This document shows positions 22,060 to 63,548 of a stretch of DNA of 64,000 bases, in pieces. The first letter of the stretch is position 1; every line of letters begins with the position of its first letter. Origin of the DNA: Kalaharituber pfeilii (taxonomy: Eukaryota > Ascomycota > Pezizomycetes > Pezizales > Pezizaceae); contig WHUZ01000016.1 in assembly GCA_015179045.1 (NCBI GenBank), forward strand, positions 682,001 through 746,000, read 5' to 3'. A program made the translations under genes and the position numbers. A model generated the notes under the pieces. The model saw only the letters and a program-made list of their open reading frames with translations. It ran no database searches and was not told the DNA's origin.

Positions 22060-22760
22060 TAATTCTAAAAGTCGGGCCAACTCGTCTATCAATGCAGCAT
22101 CAGATTCAGAAAAAAGTTTCTTCCCAGACCAGCCAAGCTGTGGCACTAGTAAGGCTCAACGTACTACATAGCCGCGAATGTTGTTTTCCCCAAACGAATT
22201 GTTGAACTCAAAATCCATAAGAATCCCTTTGACTACGTTCCTGTGCAACCTCAAACGCTGCTGATCTTAGTCAAATATTACTGAATTACATTTGAGCGAA
22301 CAATCCACAATCTAGAACTGCCTGATGTCATTTTTCGAATTAGAAATCATACATCCATCAACCTTTAACCAGAATTGGATGCAATAATGCTGAAAAATCT
22401 GACGCCCATTCATAACTAGTCTCATACCAAGCCCGCGCACGTGCCCTAGGGGCTTGGTATGAGACTAATTCATAACCTGTTCGGAAAACCATTCATCCCC
22501 AAATAGTTGACACAAAGCTCTGTCATTTACTGGAGGAAGCTGATAAAAGTCACCTGTAAGCAGCACTACCTTTGATCCTCCCAAAAGGAGCAGAGCTACT
22601 ATGGATCAGGCCACATTTGCCTTAAATCTCAGCAATGATATCATACTGAATTCGAGGATAAGGCGCTGTTTGTGAGCTGATAACTGTCGCAGCTTGCTTG
22701 AGTACCGAGCCTGTGATCTGCGAACACCCACAATCCTCGTGTACTGTACAAACAAGTGGG
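22060..22760 (-). pseudogene. Relic of a PIF1-like helicase (Helitron or helicase-family mobile gene)
   Basis: On the minus strand the reading gives RLILEFSMISLLRFKA (a decayed Walker B; the family usually reads IDEISM). It then gives LLTGDFYQLPPVNDRALC, the hallmark segment after Walker B in PIF1-like helicases. After a small insert it continues as GRQIFQHY and a later RNVVKGI. Several stops and frameshifts interrupt it. PIF1-like helicases of this kind are abundant in fungal genomes, often as Helitron-linked or multi-copy genes. I cannot tell which class this fragment came from, and only about 0.7 kb is recognisable. Confidence 0.72.
22417..22467. mobile_element. 51-bp palindromic insert with 9-bp target duplication
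   Basis: Two perfect 18-bp inverted arms (22417-22434 and 22450-22467) start with TAGTCTCATACCAAG and surround a 15-base loop. Exact 9-bp direct repeats ATTCATAAC flank it (22408-22416 and 22468-22476). It interrupts the PIF1-like relic and puts an in-frame TAG directly after the duplicated site. The arms share TAGTCTC/GAGACTA ends with the other small inserts in this window. It is either a very small mobile element or two transposon ends left after internal loss. Confidence 0.85.
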
Positions 22761-22778
22761 GTGGGAGGGGACCTTGTG

Positions 22779-22981
22779 TACCGTATTATTTTGAATTTTA
22801 GAACCTGGCGCTAGATGGATGAGGTGTAGGTGAGGAATCTACGTATGTATATCTCACTCTGCTTTGACCTTGTATCATGCTTCATTCAGGTGTAGCATCA
22901 TAACCCCTGCTGTATGCCAAACCGAGTTCAGTAGATTTCAACCATCTAGCGGGAGGTTCTAAAATTCGAAATAATACGGTA
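22779..22981. mobile_element. TA-flanked MITE (about 203 bp) with 40-bp inverted ends
   Basis: The left end (22779-22818) and right end (22942-22981) are imperfect inverted copies of about 40 bases. Each begins with TACCGTATTATTT and runs into TTTTAGAACC and a CTAGATGG-like segment. TA lies at both borders, as expected for Tc1/mariner-type insertion. No coding capacity is seen. It lies next to the PIF1-like relic. Confidence 0.8.
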
Positions 22982-25185
22982 GGCAATCCTGCATTAGGTC
23001 ACCGAGACAAGAGTGTATCCTGCTTGGCACAAGGGGTGAACCCTGGCGTCGACTGTTGCAAGTAGTCTCATTGACGCAATAATAATAGCTTGGTGCTTGG
23101 AGATGAGGGTAAGCGACCATATAGCTGTTGAACGACTACTCACATACACTCAAAGTTCATTTGATATTAATCTCTACCACAAAGGAGCAATTATGTTCGT
23201 TGAACAAGCATTGTTATCACCAATTACAAGAACCATTCAAGGCCCAGCAAAGCCTGTAAGTGAGATGTTCTATGACCAGGTCTGCTAAGCACGGAAAAAC
23301 TCTTGGATATACATGTTAATCAATCAGGTAGAAACGTGAGGATTTTAAATAAGTAGTGAAGTATATTTGGGAGCTGACGTGTTATCCAGTAGCAGAGAGC
23401 AGTGCCACCTTATCGCCAAACTTCGCCAAAAAGCGAGATTTGGACTCACGCAAGAGTATCCTTTCAAGCCTCTTATGTACAGCGCATGGGATGAATATTC
23501 AGTCAGGAAAGAGGTCAACTTGTCCACGCATCTCAGAAGTTGCACTTGAAGGCCGAGTCGATTGCTAACAAAAGATGCAGCAAATTCGTTCTTCCATAAA
23601 AGGAAACTCAATTTGTATCTGCTATGACTTATTTGGAGCTGAGATCACTTCCTAATGACTCAGGTGCATACAAGTGGAGGAAATGCCTTTGCCTACTCCA
23701 CCAGTTGGAAGTAGCTACGAGCTCAGGTCCACGGCTGTGTCTCGGCGTTTGGGCTACCAGCCTGATTCGAGAATTTTATGAACCAAGCTCTCCTCTCATC
23801 AGCAGCTGTTCATTCACAACCGTCGGAGTATATCGATCCGCCCACAAGGGTATATGGGCGAATTCACAGCAAGCAGCAATTGGGATGGAATCCAAGAATC
23901 TTGCCCATCTTGACTTTCAGCCCGGTTGGGGCACCATTGAGGTTCCAATAACGAAAATCATGTTAGATGTAAGAAGTACACGCGGCCCAAGTCACATTGC
24001 ACGATACATGCAGCCTGCAATTCATGTTTTCCCCCTGACAAGTTACCCCTTGCAGCTTATGTTTATAGAAATCACCCCAAGCAACTCAGCTATATTCCAC
24101 GAAGCAAAGTTTGGCCAAAAGAAAGTCAAGGATGAATTAGTGCTATATAAGAAATGTACACCTAGAGCTCCACTTCTCACACAGCCAGTGGTGGTACACC
24201 TTCCTAAGCGAGTTACATATCGTGGCCTGGCTACATACGCTGAAGATTCCTATTTCCTCGACATCGCAGGGTGCAGAAACGTGCACCCGTATGTATAGCT
24301 TGAAGCGAATTGGGAGTGTCGTTCTCATTAGTTGCAGTCATCCTGAAAGCTATGTACGTATCAGAAAGTGATTTCGAGTATACCTCTAATCATGCTTATC
24401 GGAGAACGACAGGAAATCTACCGCTCTAATCGCACAATATCCTATCCAATGCGCTACTTAAAACTACATAGTTGCCATTTTCAGGTCCTTAAGACTAAGT
24501 AGAGGTAGATCACTGTACTAGCGTGCAATGGAATGCACGACCTTTTCCGTTGGCATTAGCTTTAGGATTTCGCGCTGCTAGCTTAAGGGGTCGCTCCGGA
24601 TAGCCGCTGTCCGCTGTTACACAAATATAAGGTTAAGTACGCTAGAGTAAAGTATGTAGTATGAACTAATCTATTTCCATACTTCCTATCGTTCAGATGG
24701 GTGAAGTTAATGCCACATGTATAAGCATAAATGCAAGCGTGTAACCGGACGGTCGGCAAGTAGCATAGAGCTGTCGAAGTATACATAAGTTCTCAATCTA
24801 GGTAACTGAGCCTCTATCTCAGCATTCACTATACCATTTCAGTGGTGATGGGCACTCACTTTGATATATCCATTAGCCCAATCCTGCTGGCATTTAGATT
24901 CTAAGGTTTCGCGCTACGGAAGGCCCTCAAAGCACTTACCGATGCAACCAGACTATCAGTTACCTACCGTTTCCAATCAGTCTACGGGCTTGCGCTCTGG
25001 TGGAGGAAGAACTGCCCGATTGCAGCGATTGAGGTGCCTAGTCTAGAGAGACTTTGTACCAATTGCACCTCTCGCGATTGGCGTAGGAGGCTTCGATATT
25101 TCATACGTTATTTCAACACTACGAACTGAAGCCAAGGAGGTTCCTCGATACTAGTACTAAGCTGCGAGGTCGCTAGGAGTAATCT

Positions 25186-25200
25186 CTGGTTACGAGCCTA
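25186..25200 (+). repeat. Solitary copy of the GGTTACGAGACTA family (diverged)
   Basis: CTGGTTACGAGCCTA differs by one base from the common 15-base end. I could not find flanking 9-bp direct repeats, so it may be old or a chance match. Confidence 0.45.
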
Positions 25201-29867: not shown

Positions 29868-30122
29868 GATTCTAAAATGAATGTATACCGACTTCCAATG
29901 CCTCAATCACTGGTGTCGTAGAGTTGAACAGAATATGAAGAATGACAGCTGAGTCGAGGTGAGGATATATGTCAAAGAAGATGATGCTGCAGGTGCTGGC
30001 GTTAGGACAGCGGAGAGCGAATGTTTGTGCTGCGTTTGAGCCGTGGCGGGCAATCCCGAATATCGCAGACCGATCTTCTAACCGCAGGGAGAGACGAAAA
30101 AAGAATGTCGGCGGATTGTGGT

Positions 30123-31234: not shown

Positions 31235-31974
31235 GTAGAACAACCTCGTATCAGCTTGCTTACAGGACCGCAGAATGTTCCAATTTCTATGGCCCTGCTG
31301 AACTTGCTGATCCTACCCCTGCAGAGTCATGGCCCAGGAACGGTGCCAAATCTTGGTGGCTGAAACGTTGGCGCAACCGCACGATTGACGCGATAAGTTG
31401 GTCACTATTTTAGCGAACGGTAATGGGAACGCCTATCGCTCCCCTCTTTAGCTGAATGTCCAAACTGTCTGTGTGCGACTCAACGTGAAACAATTGATCT
31501 GCGGACTCTCTACCCAGCACCGATTTATCCAGTCTATCATACGTATCATACTTCATTAATAGCAGAGTCAACGCTACAGGTGGAGGAAACTGTGAAGACG
31601 CTTCTCCAAAATCCACAAAGTACAGTAAATGTTATGAGCCTATCCATTTGGCAGCCTTCGGAGCATGTCAATATCACGATCGAAGCATGTTTATCACAAG
31701 ACAATAACTATGTAAGAATCACTAAGAGAAAGAAATGCTCAGGAGCAGAGTAATCTCCCCTCTGACCCTGCGGTCCACACGGACGGACATTACGTCGGCA
31801 TGGGTTTGTTAAAGATATAGTCATGGTCATTTACAAGTTTGGCAAGTCAAATTGCTTTCGAGCATTTCCTGGCATCCTACGCACTGCGTGTTCTCGTGCC
31901 CAGACTTTTATCTCCGGCCTTCAGCCGTATGCAGTGCGCATAATCCGATTGTCGCCCGATATTTATGATATTAC

Positions 31975-32010
31975 TACGAGACTAACTAAGTCTGGCTGGT
32001 TACGAGACTA
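31975..32010 (+). mobile_element. 36-bp insert of the GGTTACGAGACTA family
   Basis: The insert starts and ends with the same ten bases TACGAGACTA and contains CTGGTTACGAGACTA at its right end. Flanks TGATATTAC (31966-31974) and TGAAATTAC (32011-32019) match at 8 of 9 positions, consistent with an ageing 9-bp target duplication. Confidence 0.65.
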
Positions 32011-32400
32011 TGAAATTACTTACAATGTCATCAAGTAGTTGTCAATTCGCATGGATGTGAATCCCGGGGAACGCTTACTAGAAGGTACTCCGTAGCTCTA
32101 CTGGAATATGCCAACCCGGTAGACGGTAACATCTAATGCATGGGAAAAACTTATTGCGAATATGAGACTAACCTCGCACCTTTTTTCGGTACTTACAGTA
32201 GGTAAAATTCATGTACTGTAGAGTACGTTCTGCTGTGTGAAAAGCTTGTCATTCAGGGACAAATGCCAGGATACCGAGTACCAGGATACCTCTATGCATA
32301 AGTGGTGGCAAGCTAAATCAAATTCCTATCATAGCCTAACTAGACAATTTGTTTATCCTCCCCTTTCCTGAATTTGATGCTAATTCTCTATGTTTTCCTG

Positions 32401-32425
32401 TAGTCAGCATCTGGTTACGAGACTA
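32401..32425 (+). mobile_element. 25-bp insert of the GGTTACGAGACTA family with 9-bp duplication
   Basis: The insert is TAGTC, five unrelated bases, then CTGGTTACGAGACTA. Exact direct repeats GTTTTCCTG occupy 32392-32400 and 32426-32434. It has no coding capacity. Confidence 0.85.
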
Positions 32426-33530
32426 GTTTTCCTGCTGGATCCACCGACTTCGAGAGCCATGCAACACATGCATACCAATCATCCTTCGTGATATCGCAAT
32501 GATCACTTAACATCTTTATCTCCACTCAGCTAGCGTTTCAGGGCATACATTATCTGTATCTACATACTCGCAATATCAATGTTAAATTGAGGCAGCACTA
32601 GCATGTGTTAAATAATTCTTTCTTGTTTTTCAACGAAGTCTCGGTATTAATTAATTGTGCTTCGGATAATCTTTGAATTATTCGCGGGGCTACGTATAAG
32701 TCCGAATTTCCAGAAACTGTTGTTTCATATAAATAAGGCTAGGCCCTTACTTAACCGGGATAAGCACTTTGAGGGCAGTCTCGAACCAGACTACCGCTTA
32801 GTGCACGTGGCGTAAAGAAACCTTCAACGGCCACTAATCTGGTGTTGGGTGGAAATCGTGGAGCATAAGTAGTTAGAACACCTGAGTGGGTCGCAACTAC
32901 TCTATTGACATCTAGTGGCATAGATGATGAGGTTATTTTGAGTGCTGGCCACGGCAACCCGGTCGACAATAATGACAGCACTGCGGTTTGTGCCATATAC
33001 TAGTTTCGTAGCCAGCCATATATAATTATATAGAATCTACATCCTAATCCACGGACCAACTGAAGGATTACTACAATTGAGTTCTAACAGCTATCGCCTA
33101 GCGATTCACTCCAATAGCACGGAATATAACAAGAAAAAGCAATATCATAATTCGGCTTCATTGTGCGTTGGTGATGCGTTGTTTGTTGGGGCCTGGATGA
33201 AAGAATATCGTGCCAGATATTGATGGTGCCTAGTAAGGTTCTTGACGCGGTGTCACCAGGAGGGTCAATAGGAGGAACACATTAGTAGATACAGGTCACT
33301 TCAGGGCTTCTGGCTCAGCAGATTGCTAAGGGAGCTTGGTGGGTTGAGATGAGGCCTGAGCGCAGAATTAGATGATGAAGCACTAGGAGAATTGGATAGT
33401 ATCTACCCAACACAGGAATCACGGCGACTCAGCATTGGCTGAACTAGGCATGCCCCGTGGCATACGTGCCGTGATCGTTCCCATGCTGGCGTTATCTAAC
33501 TCACCATCTGTCATATGGGATGGTTATTTA

Positions 33531-33543
33531 TAGTCTCATGCCA
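33531..33543 (-). mobile_element. 13-bp insert TAGTCTCATGCCA with 9-bp duplication
   Basis: Exact direct repeats GGTTATTTA flank it (33522-33530 and 33544-33552). Read on the minus strand it is TGGCATGAGACTA, a variant of the family's common end and close to the arm sequence of the 51-bp insert at 22417. Confidence 0.8.
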
Positions 33544-35500
33544 GGTTATTTATGCATGTCGCTGCTGGTGCTGCCGGAGTTGGGGATGCTGGTGTTGCTG
33601 GCAATTGGAACTGCTATTTTGTGCTAGTTCCGTGCTTAGGTTCAAGAGGCTGGAGTTGTGCCAAGAATTGAAGACCTATGCCTTTGCTGAAGTTGAATGC
33701 TGCTGTGGTCTCTAGTGATGGAGGTAACCACAAGTACCATGGAGAGGTGTAGAATTGAGGGCTCCGGTTTGATTCTGAGCAGTGGAAGAGGGTTGTCCAG
33801 CATCTCACTGAGATGGACTACAATGCTCCGGTTCCATATGACTAGATTCTGGTGGAACTAGAACAATCTATCTTTTCTCTACTGTAGAGACAACTATTCA
33901 AAATTCATGATATCATATGAGAGGGGGGATCCTTCTATTATATGGAGAATCGTCATCAATTTCCCCCTCTACACCAATGTACATATAGCGGCTCATCTAA
34001 TGATTCTTGAATTCTGTAACCTCAACTAATAGTACTTTTTATGTTACTTCTTTAGTTAACGTACATCTACTCCCTTTCCTACCGACATGTCTGGAGCTAT
34101 AGGGCCGAACATTCTTCATGCAATGATTCTTTGTCTCTTTGATGTGCTTACTTGCTGGTCGTCTATTCGCTTTGTTTCGCCCGCATGGCTATGCTGAAGG
34201 GGACGAGGCCATAGTCCTGTAGTCTCGTACACCATAAACACTGACAGAAGTATTACACACAGCTAACTTGGCTTCGCGAGCCATCGATGTTTACAAACAC
34301 AACGATAAGATCTAAATATCATAGTTTACAATCCGATACTAACTGGGTAATTTAGATGAATACTGACTCGAAACCAGATGTGGGGAATGACAGAGGTAGT
34401 CCCATGAGACTCAGCACACCTGAGCTTGTAAGGCTTTGTTATTGTCGAAACAGGTTGACTGTACTAGTATCGCATAGTGTCGCGATATATGTAGTTGAGC
34501 GGACCTCCCTTTGTGAGCACTTTCAGCACGTTTCGAGGGGGAAAAAAGTCCACCATCAATAAAATAGAACGAAAACTATAGAAAACTAATAGACCACCCA
34601 AGTCAACATTAGAGATTTCAAATTGGTTTCCAGAATTTAAATTGAAGCGTATTGGGCCAAGTTTTGCGTTTTTGGTAAGGGGGATGCCCGTCTTGGCTGC
34701 ATATTCTGGCGACTTCAAGGGACTTCAGTTCAATGGGTTATACAAATACGGTAGCCTGGGCACGAGAACAGGCTATATTAGCAATTAGATTCGGGATAAA
34801 AGGAATTGAGAGTTTGATCATATGGAATTTGGAGTATTACAGTCCATCTTTTTTAGAAAGATGCTTGAAACCCTCTTCACCGCAATACTCTACCTCTCCA
34901 GGCCTCTTGTAGTAACCTTCATCATTAGAGACAACAGATATATCACTTCGCCAAGCTGTATGTCAGTTTGAACCATCTCCATGTCGTTGAACCTACCAAC
35001 CCTGCAGCAGCCTCTCCAATCCCCCAGCAGCTACTTGAACCGCCTCACTAGCAGCTTTTCTGGCAGCACGCTACTCCTTGGGATGTTGACTACTTCCATG
35101 ATTTTTTCTCTGTTTTCTTTTTTTTGGTTTTTACCTATTGTTTTCATTTTATCTGATATTTTTTTTTCCCCTTATAACATATTTCTGCATTTGAGTATCA
35201 AGAAAGTTTTGGGTATATATTGGTTTTAGATGGACACGTCTATAGCATTGTGGGTGGAGGAAGCCTTGCTGAGTTGGACTGTTCAGTCCAAAGCAAGAGG
35301 TTGTTTCCTTTTCAAATAAGTTGTGCGTATATGGGGATTGTGGGTACATGGGGTTCTGCGTGGTGACTGAGCTTCTGTCTATGCTATATATATCTCAATG
35401 CCCTGAATTTGTGCCCTATCAGTTTCTTTGTTCAGCCACGGCTGACCTTACTGTGTATCGATTAGACTCCATGACAACAGCTCAGGGGCGGGGGTTAAGA

Positions 35501-35804
35501 GAAGGGAAACAGAGAAGTGGGTAAGAAAGTTGAGGGAGTACCGAAGGCAGCCTGTGTGAGTGGTAGAAAGGAGAGAACACTTTTCACAGCAGTTCGACAC
35601 AACGAGTCTCCGCTAAGGCCAAGGGGAGGAATAACTCTCTGTTGCCGGCCATGAAGGGAAACAGAGAAGTGGGTAAGAAAGTTGAGGGAGTACCGAAGGC
35701 AGCCTGTGTGAGTGGTAGAAAGGAGAGAACACTTTTCACAGCAGTTCGACACAACGAGTCTCCGCTAAGGCCAAGGGGAGGAATAACTCTCTGTTGCCGG
35801 CCAT
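35501..35804. repeat. Perfect tandem duplication, 2 x 152 bp
   Basis: Positions 35501-35652 and 35653-35804 appear identical base for base. There is no coding evidence; short antisense frames simply repeat. Identity implies a very recent duplication or an assembly artefact. Confidence 0.9.
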
Positions 35805-37025: not shown

Positions 37026-40000
37026 ATGGGGAGAATCAGGAATAAAGTCAAGGATATCTTCAGCAGGGCTCGCTCGAGCTCGAAGGCCCCCGGGTCCCCT
37101 CTAACCCAGCAGTCACCTGCGCTCACCGCTTCTGCAGTGGAGCCGAGCCCGAGTCCCCTAACTCGGGTCTCATCTTCCAACAGTCTTCCCCATACCGCTG
37201 TGTAAGTCATGCCAGAGTGTCCTTCGTATTTCCAAATTCAATGTATGCAGGGCAACTGAATACTAACAGCCATGAAGCACCACACTGTCCAGTGCAACTG
37301 CCCCTCCCGCTTGTGTCGTCCATACTGGGCCACATGTAGTTTCCTCCAACTCTCATTCTACCTCGCAGCACTTTGACCCAAAGAGTAGTTCTTCTACAAG
37401 CGGTACTGCCGGTGCTGGCAATACAACTTCGCAAACACCCAATGCCCCTACAAGCTCATGGAACAACTTGGTTGTAACACCTATCGCATCTCTAAATGCT
37501 TTGGCTGGTCATGAAATTTTCCAGGAACAACTCTCTAAATGCCAGAGTGCACTTACTGAAGCACAGAGAAGAGCATTTTTGGGTGCATCAGCAACCAGCA
37601 TATTAGACATGATAGCAGAGCTTGATAATCAGCATAGCCAGAACAGTATTACACGGAAATATGCCACAAAAGTCAAGGACTTTTTACAGGTTGCTGACAA
37701 CTATTTGAATGCCCTGGGAATAATTATTCAGCATAGCCCAGAATTTTCCTCTCTTGTTGTTGGAGGATTACGCTTCTTCATTGATGTAAGTTTATATTAT
37801 GGGTCCAAGCCCCAACTGGCTCCCTACTCTTGCTTTCTGTTATGATTCTGATTGTATCTATAGATTGGGAAGCGATATACAGATTTCTTTGATAAACTAG
37901 AGGAAGCAATGGAAAAATGGATGCATTATCTAGGATATGTCTCAAAATATGCAGAGCTGTATTCCCACTATGATGAGGTGAAGAAAGTAAGCTAAACTGC
38001 CAACCAACTTTGCAATACTTATGCTTATCAGAGGTTCGCAGGCCATATGTGTTGCATATGGTGACTTGATTGAGTTTTTGAAGTATATTTATGAGCTTTT
38101 TATGAGTGAGACAGGTGCACTTAACAGTATGTCTGCAATTTTACTTCTAGCTCATTCTGGTTTGGATTCTCATGCATATTCTGTACTTAGGTAAAATCTC
38201 GGGTACATTGCTTCTTCGACAGTTCACACAGCCACTGGAAACCAACATTGCAGCATTCATGGCGAATCTCAATGAACACATCACGTTTGTAGAGAAAATA
38301 ACTGACATTCTGGAGAAGAAACGGCAGTGGCTCAAAGAAAAGCAAGAAGCCGAAGAGAAAGAATGTGAGTCTACTTTTTCTGGCCAAGAGCAGGTATTCC
38401 ATTAACTTACACCTCATAGCTCGCCGACGAGGAGAGATTTTAGCATGGCTATCAAAACTAGAACCAGAGAAGGACCTCGAACGGATATATATGAAGAGGC
38501 ATAATGGCACAGGGATGTGGTTTTTGAATTCATCTGAGGTCAATGAATGGTTTCAGCAGGATAAAAAGTCTCTGCTTTGGTGCTATGGAACTGGTAAGAA
38601 GCATTTTGATTCAATTGGTATTGAGGTACTGACAAATACACTTATAGCTGGTGTTGGAAAAACTGTATTGGCGTAAGTGGATCAGTCCTCACTTCTGAGA
38701 CTGAAACAGAGCTCTCCAGACTAACCATAGTACTCATGAAAGCTCCACTCTCCTCAAAGATATTATCTCAAAACATCAAGGCAATCCTAGTATAGGAATA
38801 TGCTTCTTCTTCTTCAATTTTCAAGCCGCAGATATTCAGAAGCCAATTCAACTCTTCGCCGTGTTACTTAAACAGCTTTGTCGTTCTCAGAAAGAAATTC
38901 CTCAAGGACTTCAGGCATTGTATACTAAATGCCATTCAAATGACATATCCCCTACTTTGCTTGAACTGCAGCAGCAGTTTGAGGCTGTTAGCTCTTTCTT
39001 CGATGAAGTGTTCTTAGTTATTGATGCATTTGATGAGTGCCATCAGGATGATAGGAAGGAGATTCTGAATGGCATAACAAGACTCTTTCAGAATTGTTCT
39101 GCAAAACTCAAGCTTTGTGTGACAAGCCGTCCAGAGAAAGATATAAAGCATGCTTTTACATCCTCAGGCTTTAGCACAATCAAGATAGAAGCCATGAAGG
39201 TAGATCAAGATATCTCCAACTTCGTGCAGCATCAACTGCAAGTCCGCACACATGAGTATTGCACACTTAATGATGAAATCCGCAATGAAATTGAGCATGC
39301 ATTAGTATCGAAAGCAAATGGCATGTAAGTTGAATATATCCCTCTGTTGACATAGATGTTCATTGCTAAGATTAGCAAGGTTTCTATGGGCAAAATGTCA
39401 AGTGGATGAAATGTTTGAACAGCCTTCCATAGCTGATATCAGGATTGCTCTACAATCGCTACCATCGGATATCGATGAAACATACCAGCGCATTGTAGGC
39501 AAAATTCTCAAACAGACGTCAGCCATGAGGGCTCTTGCTGCATGGGCATTGATGTGGGTGATTACAGCAAGAAGACCTCTTAGTCTTGTGGAGTTTGCGC
39601 AGTTGGTTGCCACTAATCCAGATAAACTTGTGCCCCTTGATGAAGTCAGGACAAAGTACTTACCCCAAACAGTTGTCCATTCCTGCTGTGGCTTTATTGA
39701 AGTTGAGGAAAATATAGTGAGACCAATCCATTACACGGTACAGGAATTCCTTGTAACGGAATGGCCCTGGCCCAATGGGTGGGACCCGATAAATGCACAT
39801 GTACAGATAACACAGTCCTGTCTTCAGTATTTGAGCGAGCTCAATGGTTTTGGTGTCTATCGAAGGTTTAATAAACGGAGGATACGAGATCGAATTCCTG
39901 ATGTTCTCAACTTCACTGGAGAACTCTTCGACTATGTTGCTACTTCATTGCCATATCATGTCAAGTCGTGTCCAGCAACGCTGCCTTCTACTTTGAAATC

Positions 40001-43000
40001 GCTACTGCGGGATACCTTTTCTGAGAGAGAAAGTCAGGAGCTTCTCCGATCCACGTTGTACGGCTGGTACATTGATCATCAAGATTCGAAAGTGCCAATA
40101 GTTCCAGCTTTCAGGTACTTCGCGGTTCTTGATATGCTTCCTGTCTACAAACAAGTTTTTTCCGATCACATACTGGAAGGACTCAACAAATCTGTGAGTC
40201 TTGCTGATGCAGCAAGCTCAGGATCAATTCAGTTGGTGAAAGGTTTGCTGGATCTTGTCGCTGATGTTAATTTACGAGATGTTGATGGGCATCATGCACT
40301 TTATGGAGCAATCAAAGGTAAAAAGCCAGAAATGGTGAAGTATTTATTGGATGAAGGTGCAAGAATAAATGCTATCTCTAAAAACCTAACACCAATTGCA
40401 CAATGCACTTGGAATGGGTTAGTGGAGATAGCTCAATTGTTGATCGACAGAGGGGCCAATCTCACTGTTCAAGAAAGTCGTGCTGTCACAGTTCGCAAAC
40501 CGTTTACCACGAGTCCTTTACATCTAGCTGCCACATATGGCCATGAGGCTATATTAAAGCTTTTACTGGACCAACAGCTTGACATCAATATGCATCAAGG
40601 TCATTATGGCAGTGTACTGCAGGCAGCGATAGAAGGTGGACAAGAGATAATTGTGAAGTACCTAATAGAGCTCGGTGCTGAAGTAAACACGCAGGGAGGG
40701 GAATATGGATTCGCTCTTCAAGCAGCAGCCGAGCACATGAACACTGCCATTATGAAATGTCTACTAAATGCTGGAGCAGACGTTAACCTTGTTGGTGGAA
40801 GATATTGGACTGCTTTGCAAGCCTCCGCCAGGAGTAGAGAGGAATCTGAATCTAAAGTCAAATTGCTGTTGGATGCAGGGGCAGAGGTCAACGCTGTCGG
40901 TGGAGAATACGGGACTGCCTTACAAGCGGCGGCTGCATGTATTGGAAGGAAGTCTATAGTCAGATTGCTGTTGGATGCCGGAGCGGGTGTCAACATTGTG
41001 GGTGGAAAATATGGAACTGCCTTACAAGCCTCTGTCGGGGCTCTAGACAAGTCTATAGTCACATTGCTGTTGGATGCTGGAGCAGATGTCAACATTGTCG
41101 CTGGAGAATTTGGGACTGCCTTACAAAGCGCCATTGCGTACGGCAGCAAAACATATATAATCAAATTGCTTCTGGATGCCGGAGCAGATGTCAACATTGT
41201 GGGTGGAAAATATGGATCTGCCTTACAAGCCGCTGCCATCCGCAGGGACAGGAATCATGAACTCAAAATGCTGTTGGATGCTGGAGCAGATGTCAACCTT
41301 GTCGCTGGAGAATTTGGGACTGCCTTAACAGCTGCGGCCTTCGTTAGAAACGAATCTGTAGTCAAAATGTTGTTGGATGCCGGAGCAGATGTCAACGTTG
41401 TGGGTGAAGAATATGGGACTGCCTTACAAGCCGCTGCCTTGAGAGAAGACAGATCTATAGTCAAACTGCTGTTGGATGCCGGAGCAGATGTCAACGTTGT
41501 GGGTGGAGAATATGGGACTGCCTTACAAGCCGCTGCCTTGAGAGGAGACAGATCTATAGTCAAACTGCTATTGGATGCCGGAGCAGATGTCAACATTGTC
41601 TGTGGAAAATATGGGACCGCCTTGCATGCCGCTATTGCCGAAAAAGAGGAATCTTCAGTCAAAATGCTGTTGGATGCCGGAGCAGATGTCAACTTTGTCA
41701 CTGGAGAATACGGGACTGCCTTGCAAGCCGCTTCCTGGAAAGGAGACGGATCTGTAGTCAAACTGCTGTTGGATGCAGGGGCAGAAGTCAACACTGTCAG
41801 TGGAAAATACGGGACTGCGTTACTAGCCGCCGCAGTCTCTAAAGAAGGGGAATCTGTAGTCAAATTGCTATTGGATGCTGGAGCAGAAGTCAACATTGTC
41901 AGTGGAGAATATGGGACTGCCTTGCATGCCACTATTGCTGCCCAAAAAGAGGAATCTGTAGTCAAAATGCTGTTGGATGCCGGAGCAGACGTCAACTTTG
42001 TCACTGGAGAATACGGGACTGCTTTGCAAGCCGCTGCCTGGGTAGGAGACGAATCTATAGTCAAACTGCTGTTGGATGCAGGGGCAGAAGTCAACATTCT
42101 CGGTGGAAAATACGGGACTGCCTTGGTAGCCGCTGCCTGGAATAGTTACGCATCTATAGTCAAACTGCTGTTGGATGCAGGGGCAGAAGTCAACATCTTC
42201 CACAGACGATATGGGACTGCCTTGTATGCTGCCGCCTTCAGAGATGATGTGGTCAAGATGCTGTTGGATGCAGGGGCAGAAGTCAACACTGTCAGTGGAG
42301 AATATGGGACTGCCTTGCAAGTCGCTGCCTTGAGTGGAAGGGAGTCTTTAGTCAGATTGCTGTTGGATGCTGGAGTGAATGTCAACACTGTCAGTGGAAA
42401 ATATGGGACTGCCTTGCAAGCCGCTGCCTTGAGAGGAGACAGATCTATAGTCAAACTGCTGTTGGATGCAGGGGCAGAAGTCAACATTCTTGGTAGAAAA
42501 TACGGGACTGCCTTGATAGCCGCTGCCTGGAAAGGTTACAGATCTATAGTCAAACTGCTGTTGGATGCAGGGGCCGAAGTTAACATCGCCAGTAGACGAT
42601 ATGGGACTCCCTTGCACGCCGCTGCCTATCATGGAGGGGAATATATGGTCAAAATGCTGTTGAATGCAGGAGCAGATGTTAATATTATCAGTGGAACACA
42701 CGGGACTGCCTTGCAAGCCGCTGCCTGGATAGAAGACAGATCCGTAGTCAAACTGCTGTTGGATGCAGGGGCAGAAGTCAACACTGTTAGTGGAGAATAT
42801 GGGACTGCCTTGCAAGCCGCTGCCTGCAAGGGAGGGGAATCTGTAGTAAAAATGTTGTTGGACGCAAAGGCAGATGTCAACCTCGTGGGAGGGAAATTCG
42901 GCACTGCCCTACACGCAGCGGCATCCAGTCACTGCCTGCAGGGCTTCATGATACTTCTGGAGGCAGGCGCAGATGTACATACGACAGCGGGGCAGTACGG

Positions 43001-43271
43001 GACTGTTTTGCAAGCTACCGCATGTACGTCCTACTTCTCCCGGGAGAATGTCGAAAAAGTGAAGGCGTTGCTTGAAAGGGGTGTTGATGTAAATGCGAGG
43101 GGTGGAGAGAATGGAACTGCACTGAATGCGTTGGAACGACTGTATGATACAGTGATGCAACCGAGAAAGCCTCCAGCAGTTTACGATTGGGGTCATGGTA
43201 AGGTCGCGATCGGGAGGGCCATAAAGATGTTGAAGGATCATGGTGCAGAGGCGGGGGCATGGAGGGCTTGA
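37026..43271 (+). CDS. NACHT-ankyrin STAND (NLR-like) receptor with about 29 ankyrin repeats
   Basis: Nine exons: 37026-37201, 37278-37785, 37864-37986, 38042-38126, 38191-38364, 38420-38593, 38648-38672, 38731-39324, 39371-43271. The protein is 1919 aa with consistent phases. A Ser/Pro-rich leader is followed by a helical N-terminal domain typical of fungal STAND proteins (about residues 120-300, GGLRFFIDIGKRYTDFFDKLEEA). The NACHT NTPase region follows. It has W-FLNSSEVNEWF, then a P-loop GTAGVGKT at about 413-420 encoded largely by the 25-nt exon 7. Walker B is VFLVIDAFDE (about 515), followed by SRPEKDI. Ankyrin units of about 33 aa run from about residue 896 to 1880, with consensus GTALQAAA...VKLLLDAGADVN. 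Such proteins act in non-self or heterokaryon recognition: the repeats sense a ligand and the N-terminal domain signals. The exon 8/9 acceptor (39370) is my choice; 39355 would leave a 31-nt intron. Confidence 0.93.
40180..43130 (+). repeat. Tandem array of about 29 ankyrin-coding units (99 bp period)
   Basis: The 99-bp units lie inside the NACHT-ankyrin gene. From about 40870 to 42880 they are nearly identical, for example around the repeated GTTGGATGC and GGGACTGCC words. Differences concentrate in the stretch coding for 5-8 residues before VKLLLDAGA and in the residues after VN. Unit lengths vary by one to three codons. The pattern indicates recent expansion and exchange between units. Confidence 0.9.
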
Positions 43272-43691: not shown

Positions 43692-43706
43692 CTGGTTACG
43701 AGACTA
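43692..43706 (+). repeat. Solitary copy CTGGTTACGAGACTA
   Basis: An exact copy of the family's 15-base end, without a flanking 9-bp direct repeat that I can see. It may be an old copy whose duplication has decayed. Confidence 0.6.
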
Positions 43707-46491
43707 TCCAGTAATAATACTAGCCTCATTGATAATGCTGGCGACAGCAATGGACGCACCAGGATATAAGTGCTAGGCATCGTCCACACGCCACGACACC
43801 GACCCGCTATGGCACCAGTGGATATCTCAGGAGTACTTTGAATCAAGCAGACGAGATTCGTGTGGGAGGCTGGAGGAGATGGTTAATTAGTTGTACGTTT
43901 CTGAATCTCTGTACTTTTTCTTTCTTCACCTTAAATGATGGATTTAGTTAACAAGTTGGAGTAAGTTGAGGGTAATGTAGCTGAGTTACACCACGCCTTA
44001 CCATCCTCCTGACCTCCCACCCACTATCCTCCCCGAAATTTTATTTACCTCTGCTTCCACCTCTTCTGCTGATGTCTGTAGGACTTCTCCTCCCTTGTAA
44101 GGCCATACGGCCATTAGCAACCCCTTCTCCTCCTCGATTTCTCCTTTGACGTCTTTTCCCTCCTTAGCATGACCACTTCCTTCCTCCATCCTATTGCGTC
44201 AAATTTGAAGCCACGGTGTCACAGGCAGAAAATATGATAGGACTGGATTTTAGGGAGGTATATTATCCATGAGTATAACCTTGAATTATTTCGCGATTTT
44301 CTGATTATGGTTTTGTTTCATATCGTTTCGGCTGCGGGGCACAGTTGGGACTCGTCGAACTCAAGAAGTAAGTGCGCTAAGAAGCCACTCAACTCGTACA
44401 ATCGTACATCTCACCAGCACACTATCTACTCGCCTACTTACTTCCCAAACTCAACTATACCTTCGCTCCTTCCAACGTCAGAAGCCTCTTTACTTAATAC
44501 TTCGCATTGTACTCTAGTCTTCATATACCTTGAACTTACACTAAAAACCTACCCTCAATCAGCGCCCAAGACAATGTATTCTACTTCTGCAGGCCTCTCC
44601 AGTTGCCTCTGATTCCTTTTCCCCCCCTCCACCATCCGCACCTAGCTCACTTCCCCATTCCCCTCTGCAACGACATCTCGTCCGCTTGAGAGATCGAATC
44701 CCACAGCTTCCCTTTCCTTTCCAACCTATACATTATTTCTTCTATCTACGAAGTTTACAACAAAGGTGGAAACTTCCCAGTCCATTACTCACACATCTCC
44801 ATTGTGCCACCCCCTGGATACGCCGTAACCGCCCTAGGCGCAGTCGGCACCGAAAAAGCAAATATTAGAACCGGGATTGCAAAGGAGTCAAACCTGAATA
44901 TGCTCCATGATATGGTGCATTCAGATTTGGCAGTGGGAATTCGAGAAGCCTACGCGCAGTAGATGGATATGTACATTGGGGAGTACGTTAATACAAACTT
45001 GCCCTTCCTCCTACGATACAATCCATCATCGTAACCCGCAGTTAGGGAAAGCCACCATTACAGCGTCGGATGTAGAAAGTAGAGGTAGGGCAAGAGGGTC
45101 ACTTTACCTTGACTCTTTTGTCATGGAAAATAGTATATTGTTGCTCAATTGCCTCAACTCGTTTGAATCTTACCCCACAGGTCTATAACGAATGAGACAA
45201 ACTCTCGCATAGTTACATAGGAGAATTTCATATCTGCGGAAGTAAGAATGCTGGAGACGAGACCCGGAAGGAGGAATTGTAGGGAATGGCTTGGGTTTTG
45301 TTGAGCCAATGATTGAGAATGGGTGGGGGGCATATAAAATGGTAATTAGGAGATATATCTCAAAAGATGGAAGCAATTGGGACGATAGGAGCAAGTGATA
45401 AAGGAGGATTGGAGCTGGTGTCTGAGTCCCTGAAAGTGGCATTTAGGAAGCCATGACAGCGACAAATTACCAGTATGACAAAGGGATTGAGGCCTCAGGG
45501 AAATTATTGAGTATTTTTGATTGTGAGTATCTAAAAGTTATATTGGATATGCTATCATGCCGGATGTATCAAGATTGCAATCAATAACAGTAAGGAAAAA
45601 AAGCGACTCAATTGAGTTGCAGCAGCGTCATCGCAACCGTATGTTCAAGCTGCTTCCAACAATTCTTTTATATATATATATATTTCCCATCGCTGGTAGC
45701 AAATTATTCTTCATGAGAGTTCTCAGTCAAGTTCTAAGGAAAGAAATGCCTAAATTTGGAAATCTTAAAAGAGGGAAGCTTTTTGAAGATGATAGCTTTG
45801 TATATCATGTTACACCATCAGTCAGATGCTCGGTTGGAGTGGGGGAAGAAATGGGACAATCCGATAGGTCCCAAGTTGCATATACAACGGGGAGTTCGAT
45901 TCTACGTTTGCTGCATGTAGGTTAACCCTCAACCGACCGTTCACTAGCTTGCTAATGGCTAATAACTAAATCAAAAATATTATACTAATGTAGGTTTGTT
46001 TCAATAGAGCTGAACTATTCGCTTAGCAGATACAGTCAGTATAAAAAATCATTGGACATTGAGTGTCAGGAATTTATCACCACGGAAGTATTGCACTGAT
46101 GAAGTAGAGATCAAATACTCATCTAAATGGATTGTTTATTTAGTGTTTTTGTCAGCAATCTGAGTTAAGCATTTGAATATACGCTTTCCTATATCAACGT
46201 AAGTTGACTAAATGTCTGCCAAGTATCGGTACATTGACTAGCTATGATCTACTGTCAGTTAAGCAATAGCAGAGATATCGCAAATACAGCAGCATCTAGT
46301 CTTGTGCCCAGCTACTACTAAGCAGCACCTACAAGTATCCCACAGTGTTGCGCAGTAAAAGTGTTGCAATACTGAAATAAAGTTGGCAATAGTTGATTCT
46401 AAGGCTTAAGGGTCTCACAGAGTTGTGATATAGCAAGCCCACTACATAAATTTTATATGTTTGAAAAAGAGAGTCTAGTTAGCACTACAGT

Positions 46492-46505
46492 TAGTCACGA
46501 GACTA
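46492..46505 (+). mobile_element. 14-bp insert TAGTCACGAGACTA with 9-bp duplication
   Basis: Exact direct repeats CACTACAGT flank it (46483-46491 and 46506-46514). The insert reads as TAGTC from one end plus ACGAGACTA from the other. Confidence 0.85.
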
Positions 46506-46556
46506 CACTACAGTATCAAGAGCAGAATTATGCTTGAGAATAAAGTAGGGTTGAGC

Positions 46557-46575
46557 TAGTCTGGTTACGAGACTA
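46557..46575 (+). mobile_element. 19-bp insert TAGTCTGGTTACGAGACTA, first of two tandem copies
   Basis: Flanked by GGGTTGAGC at 46548-46556 and 46576-46584. The ends TAGTCT and AGACTA are inverted copies. Confidence 0.87.
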
Positions 46576-46584
46576 GGGTTGAGC

Positions 46585-46603
46585 TAGTCTGGTTACGAGA
46601 CTA
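46585..46603 (+). mobile_element. 19-bp insert TAGTCTGGTTACGAGACTA, second tandem copy
   Basis: Identical to the copy at 46557. It shares the GGGTTGAGC repeat at 46576-46584 and is closed by a third GGGTTGAGC at 46604-46612, giving target-insert-target-insert-target. Confidence 0.87.
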
Positions 46604-46824
46604 GGGTTGAGCGGTCATGAAGTTATCGTCGCCCCGAGCTGTCATACCTGACTGTACAAAGGATATATGTACTACGCTCGACTGCAGTACTGTCGTCTGT
46701 TTGCCCCGACCCACTTGCTGACGTTTTCTATGTACACCTACAATACACCAAGGTTTTAACCCACGCCTGTTGCATAACTTTATATTGGAAAAACAGAGAT
46801 GCTTTGCACTAAGCTACCATTAGG

Positions 46825-48569: not shown

Positions 48570-49725
48570 CTGCACATCTTGGAGCAAATGCCCGCAACTA
48601 TTTAATCAAGTCAGATTGCCTTCAAAATTTGTATAGAGTTAATACCTATTGTGAAAAACTGCCTTACAAATTTCTGTCTTGATCCAATTTCACAGACACC
48701 AGCAGAACCATTTTCCCCGTAACCTTTATTCACACAATTGTCATGCCTCCAAGGCATCCAAGAATAACCCCTTCAGCATATGCCACCTCTCAAATAGGTA
48801 TGCCAAGCTCAGAAAGACTAGAAAAAAGGAACTCTGCAAGCTGAACCTGCTTCAGCAAGTCTGAATTGTTTTCTCTGCCAATTTCTTGTAGATAAGCCAC
48901 TGTGAGTACTTGGAAGAGAGTACTGCAGGCTGAAACTGCTGCCTGTAGCTGCGAAATGCTGTAGGTGCATGTGCATGGTTAATGGCAGGTGGATTTGTTG
49001 CAGTAATTGGTACGGAGATATGAACGGGAAGTGGGTGCCAAACCTCTCATTTGCGCAATTCCCGCTAAGATGACTAATGCAATACGGGAGAATATTTATG
49101 AGGAAGTTGCCAAAGCTCTCCAATTTACGGACTGCAAAACATAGCTTCATGGTCTGCCAGTGTAACTTCTAGAAAGGCATCAAGTGATCGGGAGGCACAG
49201 ACGGAAGCATAAAGAGCTAGCAACGCAATTCCCCCATGAGCGAAAATCGATTAAGCCGCATCGACCTTAAAGTTACGACCAAAAACCGCTGAAACTGTCT
49301 TCTTGGGCCAGATTTCACTGTTACTTCGCTCCCTACTGCCTCCGCTCAATCCACCTCAATACTTTGCTTTCACTGCAACTGGAACTTTCACATACGACAC
49401 GAGAATGTTATCCTAGGTATCCAGTTGGGAGAAGAAGAGTGTGGGGCTGTATCAAACAAAGATAAGCTTAATTACAAACCACAATCAAAAAACAATTTAT
49501 CAGGTCATAAGGTTAAAAATATTAGCAGGTTTTTTCTTGCAAAATAGCCTTGATCATATATGTATTAGCCCTAATAGAATCGTTCTGGTCCCCTTGGGAA
49601 TCATCTGTAGTTCCTGAGAGGCCCCGGCCGCTCGAGAGATCAGTTGATCCGCTCGAGAATTAGTATAGAAAGAAATAAACCATACAAATGTACATCTCTC
49701 AAGGTCCAAGTACTCGTACAATTAC

Positions 49726-49740
49726 CTGGGGACGAGGCTA
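49726..49740 (+). mobile_element. 15-bp diverged insert CTGGGGACGAGGCTA with direct repeat
   Basis: Direct repeats TACAATTAC flank it (49717-49725 and 49741-49749; the match extends to ten bases). The insert differs at three positions from CTGGTTACGAGACTA. Its intact flanks alongside a changed core suggest a sister subfamily and not simple decay. Confidence 0.7.
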
Positions 49741-50415
49741 TACAATTACCTCATCTTCTGTACTATTAAGCTAATGTTCACGAGATGACTGAACAAAAGT
49801 GCATAACAATTTATTGAGCATTTTTGAGAGTTTCTGATGCATATGCATCGCTGACATTGCCTAAGTGCTGCTGCCCCGTTGCTTGTATCCACCATATCAC
49901 CAAGTCAAAAGGAATGTGTGCATAAAATTATCTTAATTTTCGTTGAAAACGCTTTCATGACTTAGGGTGGAAAAGGCTTCATATTCCCGACAGGGCCTAA
50001 ACGGAATTGTTCACGTGAGAAGAAAACTACAACCAACCAACCAACCAACCCATAACCGTGTTCACTTGAGCTCAAGTTCGTCCCCAGAACTCAATTGGAT
50101 CAAATTATAATGAAGTCCCAAAACCACCCTTAGAGATAGATCGTATACCATGAACATTCACCAACCTCTGTAATGAAGTTCAAGGAATATATATATATAC
50201 CACTTGAAACTGCTGTATAACGGGAATTGTTGATAGATAGTTTGCCGTTGAGGATAATAAATGAGAAACACAAAACCACACATGCAAAAACACAAGATAG
50301 ATAAAAGCCGTTAGGGGGGAAATAAAATGCATATCAACAAAAACTCAAAAATATCAACACCCCCACACAGTCTCAAAACGAAAAAGAGAAAACAAAAGGA
50401 GACGCTAAGAAAAAG

Positions 50416-60265: not shown

Positions 60266-61275
60266 ATGTTCTCCCCAATCAGCGAGTATAACGACGATGA
60301 CTCCGCGTCCATCCAATGGCCTCTCTCCCCCGTATCGGACTCCGAAAGCGATTTCCCATCGTTCTCCTTTCGTCGCAGCTTCTCCAACGCAGCAAACATC
60401 AATCTGCCCACGAGCCTTTCCACCGCAAAAATTGTCGCCCTTCCAAACTCTGCGTACTACATTCCGAACTTCATAACTGCTGAGGAGGAAAGGATTCTCT
60501 TAGACAAGGTAGCATCATCGCCCTTCACGTCATTCAACCTCAGCTACCAATCCCTCCCCTTGACCGGAAATTAATGACCATTCTAGATTGCGAACGCTCC
60601 AAAACCACATTGGACCCAACTCTCCCACCGCCGTCTCATCACTTATCCATCTGCGCTGACTCCTAACAACATTCTCCTTAATAACCCTCTCCCTCTATGG
60701 CTCACAGCTCCATACATCCCTCGCATGCAGTCCCTCAACTTATGGGGTAAAGCTCCCCACGGCCAGCCTAACCATGTCTTAATTAATGAATACAAACCTG
60801 GTGAGGGCATCATGCCGCATGAGGACGGCCCAGCGTACCACCCGATGGTCGCCACGATCAGTCTCGGAGGGTCTATAGTGTTAGATATCTTTGAGAAAGA
60901 CGGCATGAGGAACCCCGAGGAGAAACGGGTACCTGTATTCAGGATTCTGCAAGAGCCACGAAGGTGAGTAATAATCATTGCACTTAGGGTCACAATTTTG
61001 TGAATGGAAGCTCTGAAGTTCTGACTTGTGTGTGGTGTCCCGTTAGCCTCCTTGTGACAACTGGTGAACTCTATACCTCACATCTCCACGGCATAGCTGC
61101 TGTTGAAGTGGATGAGAACCTTGGCCCGCAAACGATTGCGAACTGGGAACAGCTTGGAAGTCGAGAGGCATTCAAGGACAGTCGCAATGCGAGAACTCTG
61201 CGGACAAGCTTAACATATCGAGATGTATTAAGAGTATCAAATCTTGGTACTAAACTTTTCGGGCGTAAAAATTGA
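60266..61275 (+). CDS. ALKBH6-like Fe(II)/2-oxoglutarate dioxygenase
   Basis: Three exons: 60266-60508, 60587-60963, 61047-61275. The protein is 282 aa. A variable N-terminus precedes VALPNSAYYIPNFITAEEERILLDK. The catalytic double-stranded beta-helix has NHVLINEYKPGEGIMPHEDGPAYHPMVATISLG, which supplies the HxD iron ligands (HED). The distal His ligand follows in TSHLHGIAAVEVD, and the 2-oxoglutarate-binding RxxxxxR in RTSLTYR. Order and spacing match the AlkB homologue 6 group. The family performs oxidative demethylation or hydroxylation; the substrate of ALKBH6 is not well settled, and nucleic acid repair or tRNA has been suggested. I chose the ATG at 60266 because it starts a compact N-terminus. 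The frame is open further upstream without another family feature. Confidence 0.93.
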
Positions 61276-61441
61276 TTTGATGGCTGAATTCCGTCTTCTG
61301 GGATATCATAGACTCGAGCTAGTGCGGTAAAGATCATTTTTCACAAGACCATGTGACTTCTCATTACAGGAGCATAAAATTTTATTCCATCCATCTTCTG
61401 TGTATTAGTTATACGACGTAATGTACATTATCAAGATTTCA

Positions 61442-62572
61442 TCAGTAAATATATGGAACCATTTTCCACCGGCCTGTCCAGCACACAAGAAGTTAGCCCA
61501 GTTGACTGGAATGATGATACGCAAAAGAGGCGGAAATCCCCCACCTTTAACCTTGTCCTCACCAAATTTCGTTTTATACCACTCATAGCAGTGGCCTGCT
61601 GTGACTCCAAGATTTACCACGACAAAGATTGTTGTGCATAGCATAGTCTTATTCAGAAGCTGCCCATTGGGCGCTGTCAGTACCGTCAATGCAACGTATA
61701 ACATGCATTCGGCAAAATAATGGGGGCATATGATGTAGCGAAAAATGGGGGCTTCTGGTAAAGAGTATTTCCGGAGTGTCGAAAGATAGCGATGGCAATC
61801 ATTCTGAAGCCCTGAAGCAAAGATGAACAATGGCAGGGCAAGTGTCGTCTTCCACGTAGGAGCTGTGACTGGCGATCGACCGAACAGTTTGCCTTTGAAA
61901 TCTGGATGAATAAGAAGGGTCCCTGTCTCAATGTTAAGTGCGAAGTCGGGGAATTTTGACAGGCGCATGAAAATCCCTACCTTTTCCCTCGACCCAGATA
62001 GCCATTCCAGTTGCTACATAATAAGCAAGTCCTAATAAATAATGGACAAACCACATTTGACTATTTGACTTTTTTGAAACGTAGACCGTCTCGTAATACC
62101 GGCGCACGCCCTGGGCAAACATGCACAGCCAGGCGAGCACAATTTGATCCATGCTTTGTGTTGGGTTCCGTGTATCACTCGGTTGGCCGAGACTCAATAA
62201 AAACCGTAGGAGGGGGCCATGGGTGAGGATCTGATAGCCCCACAATAGAGAGGATGCAATGGAGATAACATAGAAGTGAGAGAAGTATCTATGTGGGACC
62301 TGAATCTCTGCCAGAGCATCTAGAAGTGGAGTTGAGTTAGGCTGGTTGGGTGTTATGCCAGGCTTTGCCGGCTGCGCTAGCTTTCCATAGGGCAAAAGGC
62401 GAGTCGACACTTGCGGGATTACGTTGGCTAGAAGTACCTGCAACGAGATCTGTGTCAGTTACAGGCAAGAATTTCGGCGGTTGATTTGGAGAACAACTAT
62501 AGCCGCTGCAACGATATAAAAGCACTGGAGATACCCTGAAAGTGTGAGCCAGCCGTAGTCCGCGGATTCCAT
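61442..62572 (-). CDS. Polyprenal reductase (Dfg10/SRD5A3-like steroid 5-alpha-reductase family)
   Basis: Proposed exons: 62572-62498, 62437-61981, 61922-61545, 61473-61442. The protein is 313 aa. Hydrophobic segments run throughout, indicating a multi-span ER membrane protein. Signatures are VPHRYFSHFYVISIASSLLWGY, RRYYETVYVS, HYLLGLAYYV, then the reductase C-terminal domain with FRYIICPHYFAECMLYV, NLGVTAGHCYEWYKTKFGE and the terminal GRWKMVPYIY. The terminal part is recovered only by splicing the last 32-nt exon. The family takes part in dolichol synthesis for protein glycosylation. The first donor (GTTGTT) is tentative; the other junctions fit well. It is convergent with the dioxygenase gene, with 166 bases between stop codons. 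Confidence 0.9.
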
Positions 62573-62896
62573 CGCCTTATCGGCTGTCATTGCTGTCAAG
62601 AAAGCAGATGATCCTCGCGTGATGAGAGATCGGAGACCAGCCTATCGAGAAATTGGGCACGAAGCTGTCGAGAAATGGGATTGTTGGGTACCAGCTTTTA
62701 ATGATTGGGATTTTAATATGGCACGGGTTTCTTCTGCGACCAAACTACCTCGGTTTATCCCACAGCCATCGAGTCTACTTTGAGGAAGTACGGCAGGAGA
62801 GGAGAAAGAGGAAGGAGGAAATGTCGAGCAGATCAGCATATGCTGGGCTAGATTACATATCAAACGGCCGCCACCCAAGGGTTTCATGGTGCGAAC

Positions 62897-62910
62897 TGGT
62901 TACGAGACTA
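62897..62910 (+). mobile_element. 14-bp insert TGGTTACGAGACTA with 9-bp duplication
   Basis: Exact direct repeats GGTGCGAAC flank it (62888-62896 and 62911-62919). Only the right-hand end of the family is present. Confidence 0.85.
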
Positions 62911-63548
62911 GGTGCGAACTTGGTATTCATCTTCTTTTCGATTCCCCTCATTGCATTAACATTTCGTCTGGGGCAGAATCCCTATATAGTGACAATCATC
63001 AGTATTCACTAATACTAAAGCTCCGCCCCAAGCCAAGTTTTTACAGTGTACTGTATCATATTTGTATTCTGAATTTGATCTGTCCAGGAAGTTAAAGGGC
63101 ACATCCGCCATGCATGCTTGTGAAGCAAGTTCCAACTGACTTGTATACTTGGTAGGTCTTGCCCCAGGTTGCCTTGTTAACTCGTGATTGTAGAACAGAC
63201 CGCACCAACCAGTCTTGCTTGACCTTGAGCGAGCAGAGCAGGGAGGGGACGCGGGGATAACTTGCAGTATATAATAAGCGGAGGGAACTCGAAAAAGCAT
63301 GCAGGGGACCCAGGCCAGTCCTGTTTTCCGTGAAGCTGCACTTTCGAGCGAGTAGCTGCAGTGCACAGCAATAAATGGAGAATGCGGGCGCTGTGCGAGG
63401 GTAAGCCTTCGAGGGGTTATGCAACAAGACGAGGGGGGGGGGTCAGCAAGCATTGCTTGCGTGTGACAGTTTGCTTGGCAGCAAGTGGGCGAGGCTTCAG
63501 ACGGGGGGGGGAGCAGTAAGAGTTATGCGCACTAGGCACGACAGAGCG

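Follow-up and report, generated by a model that had tools for sequence, protein, structure and literature searches.

Short inserts between 9-bp duplications in Kalaharituber pfeilii are probable excision footprints of a DNA transposon family

This work deals with a 64-kb stretch of DNA, hereafter the window, from the desert truffle Kalaharituber pfeilii (Pezizales). The window corresponds to C68:682001-746000 in an assembly of 360 contigs and 78.0 Mb (78.03 Mb); plain positions refer to the window, C numbers to contigs and L numbers to sampled loci. An earlier note had described eleven tiny inserts in it, which share a terminal sequence and mostly lie between 9-bp direct repeats. We consider it very likely that these inserts are excision footprints (scars) of a family of cut-and-paste DNA transposons, whose members have inverted TAGTCTCGTAACCAG...CTGGTTACGAGACTA ends and are flanked by 9-bp target duplications. 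All eleven sites were found where the note had placed them, and re-checking the duplications gave the same tally: eight exact 9-bp duplications, one matching at 8/9 positions (31975) and two sites without duplication (25186, 43692).

The note had left the choice between two alternatives, footprints left by the excision of a transposon whose ends are TAGTCTCGTAACCAG-like, or a new class of very small mobile DNA. The first was borne out in so far as the same genome contains both miniature and large elements with these ends and with 9-bp duplications. The second is unlikely, and it is also superfluous, because the inserts match terminal parts of the larger elements and because the commonest class in our sample (14-15 bp, 19 of 41 duplicated ends) has one end only.

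Duplications flanking the ends

In the window, exact 9-bp repeats around stretches of 12-59 bp starting with TAGTC or ending with GACTA gave 8 hits, of which seven are inserts and one is the outer span of a tandem array; 60 dinucleotide shuffles of the window gave 0.03 on average and never more than 1. The insert at 49726 is not among these hits, because its end reads GGCTA. The inserts at 46557 and 46585 are not independent of each other, since both sit in the same tandem array (duplication-insert-duplication-insert-duplication).

The genome-wide count that the note had called for showed the pattern to be spread across the genome: the exact 15-bp end CTGGTTACGAGACTA occurs 777 times, the reversed control sequence not once. 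Our sample consisted of 57 exact ends: the window supplied 6 of them, 20 loci of 10 kb another 31, and small loci completing contig C1 the remaining 20. An end was scored as duplicated if a 9-bp repeat with ≤1 mismatch was present within 200 bp. This was the case for 41 of the 57 ends (27 exact, 14 with one mismatch), whereas decoys, in which the left 9-mer was shifted 10-36 bp outward (eleven offsets, all 57 ends), produced an apparent duplication at 0-4 of the 57. The note had regarded copies without a duplication as evidence against its claim of insertion; by this test 16 of the 57 ends are such copies, but the claim stands because 41 duplicated ends contrast with 0-4 for the decoys. On contig C1, where all 28 exact ends were covered, 21 were duplicated: 19 are scars, with lengths of 14-30 bp, and the other two are the ends of a single miniature inverted-repeat transposable element (MITE) of 78 bp. 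A motif scan of 339 kb gave 51 hits, whereas 25 composition-matched control motifs gave 2.7 on average (range 0-6); the 51 hits must not be taken as a density, because most of the 339 kb was picked for containing the end.

Insert lengths and a possible excision mechanism

Among the 41 duplicated ends the insert was 14 bp long in 4 cases, 15 bp in 15, 17 bp in 1, 19 bp in 5 and 25 bp in 6 (the one at 32401 in the window and five more), followed by 30-31 bp (3) and 36 bp (1), and MITEs of 78, 82 and 132 bp contributed two ends each; the two tandem arrays and the MITEs are counted twice in this tally. Inserts of 16, 18 or 20-24 bp were absent from these 41 ends. One insert tallied as 15 bp (L018 4959) can also be taken for an insert of 23 bp whose duplication is exact, and one 19-bp case (L021) differs from the two-ended 19-mer.

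One-ended scars were counted at 15 ends for 15 bp, at none for 16 bp and at one for 17 bp, the other end being lost exactly at the border of the duplication. It is this fall above 15 bp, with both duplications kept, that leads us to suggest a staggered cut, some 15 nt into the element, a tentative idea which we would not put at even odds. The transposase would cut the element out, and the rejoined break would keep both 9-bp duplications together with one end, to which a few bases of the other end may be added. A cut in the 5' strand about 15 nt inside the element would leave 15-nt tails at the donor site, comparable to the 17-nt tails of P elements. In the 19-bp scar the terminal AG of one tail could have paired with the CT at positions 5-6 of the other, and the scars of 25 and 30 bp, which keep more than 15 nt of one end, would require either that the gap was partly repaired before the ends were joined or that a second position was cut. 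Tandem scars would form later, by slippage between the 9-bp repeats.

The same lengths can be read in terms of internal deletion, i.e. loss of the interior of the element in place, by replication slippage or abortive gap repair, without excision by a transposase. Such an origin agrees with the subterminal sequence kept in the 25- and 30-bp scars, and joining at the 5-bp repeat GACTA is compatible with the 25-bp product, but the sharp drop above 15 bp and the loss of the other end exactly at the duplication are too frequent for random deletion, and we regard internal deletion as improbable.

Several further observations concern the form of the scars. By eye, the duplication beside the retained 15-bp end starts with G or C in 15 of 15 scars of 15 bp, which is perhaps partly an effect of the probe, with an unexplained remainder. 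In L022 (around 4947) a 15-bp scar, itself flanked by an exact duplication, is nested inside an apparent older 13-bp scar of the TAGTCTCATACCA subfamily, and a near-end in L047/L049 looks by eye like an old 39-bp scar, whose flanks match at 6/9 positions with three transitions. Inserts of 11 bp, TAGTCTGGTT(G/A), occur between exact 9-bp duplications at L011 5321 and L012 5946; their count is not above that of control motifs, and they are at most a hint of a third end type. A second tandem array of duplications and scars was found at L017 8529-8585 (insert 8538), besides that at 46548-46612 in the window, and the two may be minisatellites that arose by slippage between the 9-bp repeats.

Miniature and long elements with the same ends

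Three MITEs with duplications were seen in the sampled loci, of 132 bp in L012 (exact duplication), 78 bp in L014 (8/9) and 82 bp in L016 (8/9). Judged by the end pattern alone, eight elements of 66-84 bp carry exact ends, one of which (84 bp, L015) has no matching duplication. The short elements share their ends and the length of their duplication with the larger ones, as is expected of MITEs.

Long elements were sought as neighbouring ends 1.5-12 kb apart among 128 listed class-1 and class-2 ends (defined below). Ten such pairs faced inward, one was ++, one -- and none -+. Where the flanks were checked, the elements span 3.2-10.1 kb: 3244 bp at C317, 5881 bp at C112, 6531 bp at C79, 9616 bp at C296 and 10128 bp at C314. 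All five have exact 9-bp duplications, TGTAAAACC and CCTCTGGCC for the C317 and C112 elements and GAATTTAAT, GCGGAATAA and CTCGCTACG for those of C79, C296 and C314; these five are part of the ten inward pairs, the longest of which (C335, 10.7 kb) is outside the five. The 27-bp inverted ends (terminal inverted repeats) are identical at C317 and C112.

Empty sites

The repeat that surrounds a scar in L026 (5032) has a paralog in L020, which contains a single GATTTTGC(C/T) in place of the GATTTTGCC + 15 bp + GATTTTGCC of L026, thus it misses exactly one insert plus 9 bp. In the L017 tandem array one copy of a paralog pair is also without the insert, the border there showing further differences. 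The paralogous empty site means that an insertion took place; taken alone, it fits a scar and a direct micro-insertion equally and does not separate the two.

Micro-insertion would mean that end fragments of 13-30 bp, released by a transposase, were inserted at new sites with a 9-bp stagger, and that the inserts are tiny mobile DNA and not scars. Identical 15-mers and 25-mers at unrelated sites with intact 9-bp duplications are in line with this, and so are the 19 to 1 ratio of scars to duplicated MITEs on C1 and the tandem and nested cases, which repeated insertion could give. However, a one-ended 15-mer is without the second end that, as is generally known, cut-and-paste transposases join, the termini matched by the inserts are those of elements with the same duplication length, and the 19- and 25-mers are explained by microhomology (AG/CT and GACTA, respectively). 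We find micro-insertion highly improbable; were it true, the one-ended micro-insertions would have to be counted as mobile DNA in themselves.

Helicase gene and search for a transposase

An open frame of the 3.2-kb element corresponds to the C-terminus of a 798-amino-acid RecQ-like superfamily II helicase with the Pfam domains DEAD, Helicase_C and ResIII, whose top NCBIfam match, recQ_fam, stays under the cut-off of that model. As a query the helicase gave 32 match rows in the genome. Of the ten inward end pairs eight enclose a helicase region, against an expectation of 0.03, and neither of the two same-direction pairs does so. In three of the eight (C317, C335, C296:309826) the identity to the query is 86-100%, the remaining five come from a group of nine rows with 34-45% identity. 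In the same group, C298, C101:814644 and C43 are located 3.5-4.3 kb from a single listed end facing them and C35 is far from any. Most other helicase copies, with 75-95% identity (e.g. C303, C246, C34), are away from the listed ends and perhaps represent a sister family. On C303 (105568-122046) four copies of the helicase C-terminus are arranged in opposed pairs within 17 kb. The two inward pairs without a helicase match are C321 and C112, the latter carrying a DDE_3 gene.

The DDE_3 gene of the 5.9-kb C112 element was considered as the transposase of the family and rejected. It probably belongs to a nested element, because none of its 11 other near-complete copies is inside a listed end pair. 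Tc1/mariner elements duplicate TA on insertion, and the 9-bp duplications found here also exclude Tc1/mariner as the identity of the family. The twelve near-complete copies of this Tc1/mariner-type transposase fragment, including that at C112:2212443, are 98-100% identical, and the DDE_3 family was perhaps recently active. The Kyakuja-Dileera-Zisupton (KDZ) transposase domain had 0 matches in the genome, in a search in which the controls were equally silent.

Mutator-like elements (MULEs) also make 9-bp duplications, and a MULE family was weighed as the owner of the ends. The duplication length is compatible and MULE domains occur at 71 places in the genome, but none of the 71 is inside any of the ten end pairs, and exact 15-bp ends were absent from 20 MULE loci. 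The Mutator-like Muta1 of mosquito has similar, 8-9 bp target duplications, it differs in that its excision is mostly precise (about 90% when the donor duplications are present; PMC5225508), and the MULE domains of this genome lie outside the elements described here. A MULE origin of the ends is thus quite improbable, and MULE/Mutator was rejected as the identity of the family.

Lineage and comparison with known systems

Because the helicase, the duplication length and the inverted ends fit, we lean slightly towards assigning the family to AcademH or to a close relative; AcademH DNA transposons are said to have been described by Kojima in 2020. The target duplication of KolobokH is TTAA, as opposed to the 9 bp found here, hence KolobokH was rejected. 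It had been considered because, in the extract used, PMC10799480 names it as another helicase carrier: the DEAD and Helicase_C domains are given there as coming from AcademH, KolobokH or Helitron, and AcademH is reported to occur in Ascomycota. AcademH has target duplications of 9 or 10 bp and AcademX of 3 or 4 bp (PMC10045372). The family described here resembles AcademH in its superfamily II helicase with DEAD and Helicase_C, in its duplication length and in its ascomycete host (PMC10045372, PMC10799480), it differs in that an Academ-type DDD/E transposase was not found in the parts of the elements that were read. In the extracts of the literature on AcademH or Academ excision and footprints that we used, we found no description of excision or excision scars of AcademH-like helicase-encoding transposons.

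A close parallel for the scars comes from the P element of Drosophila, which leaves 17-nt 3' tails; some of its repair products keep the duplications and are joined at 2-bp microhomologies (PMC2895639). Kept duplications, residual inverted-repeat sequence and 2-bp microhomology joins are common to the two systems, whereas the P element has an 8-bp duplication and 17-nt tails as compared with 9 bp and about 15 bp here, and its products often keep most of both ends, the scars here usually one (PMC2895639). The 8-bp duplication led us to reject the P element as the identity of the family. Stowaway MITEs are likewise small and leave short pieces of their ends behind when they excise, with the difference that here 13-15 bp of the end stay together with the full 9-bp duplications (PMC4561436).

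Genome-wide end classes and points against excision

In the genome, 80 of the 777 exact ends continue into a 27-bp class-1 end (as AAG after the 25-mer) and 48 into a class-2 end; the 25-mer ending in GACTA accounts for 139 of the 777, the 80 class-1 ends included, and the 19-mer for 48, all these classes being somewhat impure. Since only these 80 and 48 ends of the 777 have class-1 or class-2 continuations, the genome seems to keep hundreds of scars. The sister end TAGTCTCATACCAAGCC, which defines the subfamily of the 51-bp insert at 22417, occurs 169 times.

It must be noted that a number of points weigh against excision as the origin of the inserts. Excision itself is what we infer, because we saw no site that is occupied by a full element in one copy and marked by a footprint in another one. 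Tails of 15 nt do not by themselves account for the 25- and 30-bp classes, and near-full two-ended joins, which are common among P-element excision products (PMC2895639, Table 1, as far as the extract goes), are missing from the 57 ends. A transposase was not found: two probes of the C146 element, which should lie just outside the helicase gene, had no notable open frame, and of the copies of 9.6-10.7 kb (C296:305408-315023, C314:259697-269824, C336:65244-75805 and C335:172919-183625) at most the tips of the flanks were read. These longer copies are large enough to hold a second gene. (The second C146 probe contains another possible scar, of 24-26 bp between repeats of 9-11 bp.) The 16 ends without a duplication are explained in part, the L054 and L067 loci being too short to include a MITE partner end and the duplication in L059 being decayed (7/9); the others are unexplained. 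The 84-bp element in L015, with both ends exact and differing flanks, is a clear exception. Some of the 19-, 25- and 27-mers counted above are misassigned: C2:708904 (= L017 3905), counted among the 80 27-mers, is really a 25-bp scar whose duplication begins with AG, at least two of the 48 class-2 ends (C1:305314 and C1:539737) are 30-bp scars, one 19-mer (C18) is the terminus of an 84-bp element, and the 25-mer C212:586278, which is not among the 80, is the terminus of a MITE. Finally, with a 15-bp probe the count is too low for scars that retain fewer than 15 bp of the end, those of 14 bp surfacing mainly where the duplication begins with G, and the four putative scars of 7 and 11 bp are within the range of control motifs (0-7). 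The 15-bp mode as a pure artefact of the probe was rejected, this holds for the shorter scars only and leaves the drop from 15 to 16-18 bp unexplained.

Footprints and MITEs are known kinds of sequences; unusual here are the abundance of the scars, their one-ended 15-bp form, in which both duplications are kept, and the connection with a lineage that carries a helicase. If the inserts are excision footprints, the surviving scars may hold a record of the way in which a poorly studied transposon with a helicase leaves its site, and they predict the position of the cut and the route of repair. They would also mark past transposition where the elements have gone, and could seed tandem repeats flanked by 9-bp duplications.

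Individual sites in the window

The insert and whole-feature coordinates of the sites are as follows, strands being assigned to the two single ends only. The eight inserts with exact 9-bp flanks begin with a 51-bp palindromic mini-element of the TAGTCTCATACCAAGCC subfamily (22417-22467, whole feature 22408..22476) between two copies of ATTCATAAC (22408-22416 and 22468-22476). A 25-bp footprint, TAGTCAGCATCTGGTTACGAGACTA, at 32401-32425 (32392..32434) is flanked by GTTTTCCTG, and a one-ended footprint of 13 bp, TAGTCTCATGCCA, at 33531-33543 (33522..33552) by GGTTATTTA. Next come a two-ended 14-bp footprint, TAGTCACGAGACTA, at 46492-46505 (46483..46514) with the duplication CACTACAGT, and the tandem array 46548..46612, in which three copies of GGGTTGAGC alternate with two identical 19-bp footprints, TAGTCTGGTTACGAGACTA (46557-46575 and 46585-46603). 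The last two are one-ended: 15 bp with the variant end, CTGGGGACGAGGCTA, at 49726-49740 (49717..49749), flanked by TACAATTAC, and 14 bp, TGGTTACGAGACTA, at 62897-62910 (62888..62919), flanked by GGTGCGAAC.

The site with the 8/9 duplication (TGATATTAC/TGAAATTAC) is a 36-bp composite insert at 31975-32010 (31966..32019). Single ends on the + strand with no visible duplication are CTGGTTACGAGCCTA at 25186..25200 and an exact CTGGTTACGAGACTA at 43692..43706. A possible additional 24-bp footprint, TAGTCTTGTGCCCAGCTACTACTA, at 46297..46320, which was not in the earlier note, has flanks matching at 8/9 and is a weak candidate, since control motifs also produce 2.7 hits in 339 kb.

The window has 6 exact 15-bp ends, as compared with 0.64 predicted from 777 per 78.03 Mb; scars may cluster in the genome, with the caveat that the window was singled out for them. 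It also contains, at 38861-43271, a NACHT-like fragment and, after it, a long ankyrin-repeat frame, with 21 units of 99 bp arranged as an array (the protein was named by eye), and a perfect tandem duplication of 152 bp at 35501-35804.

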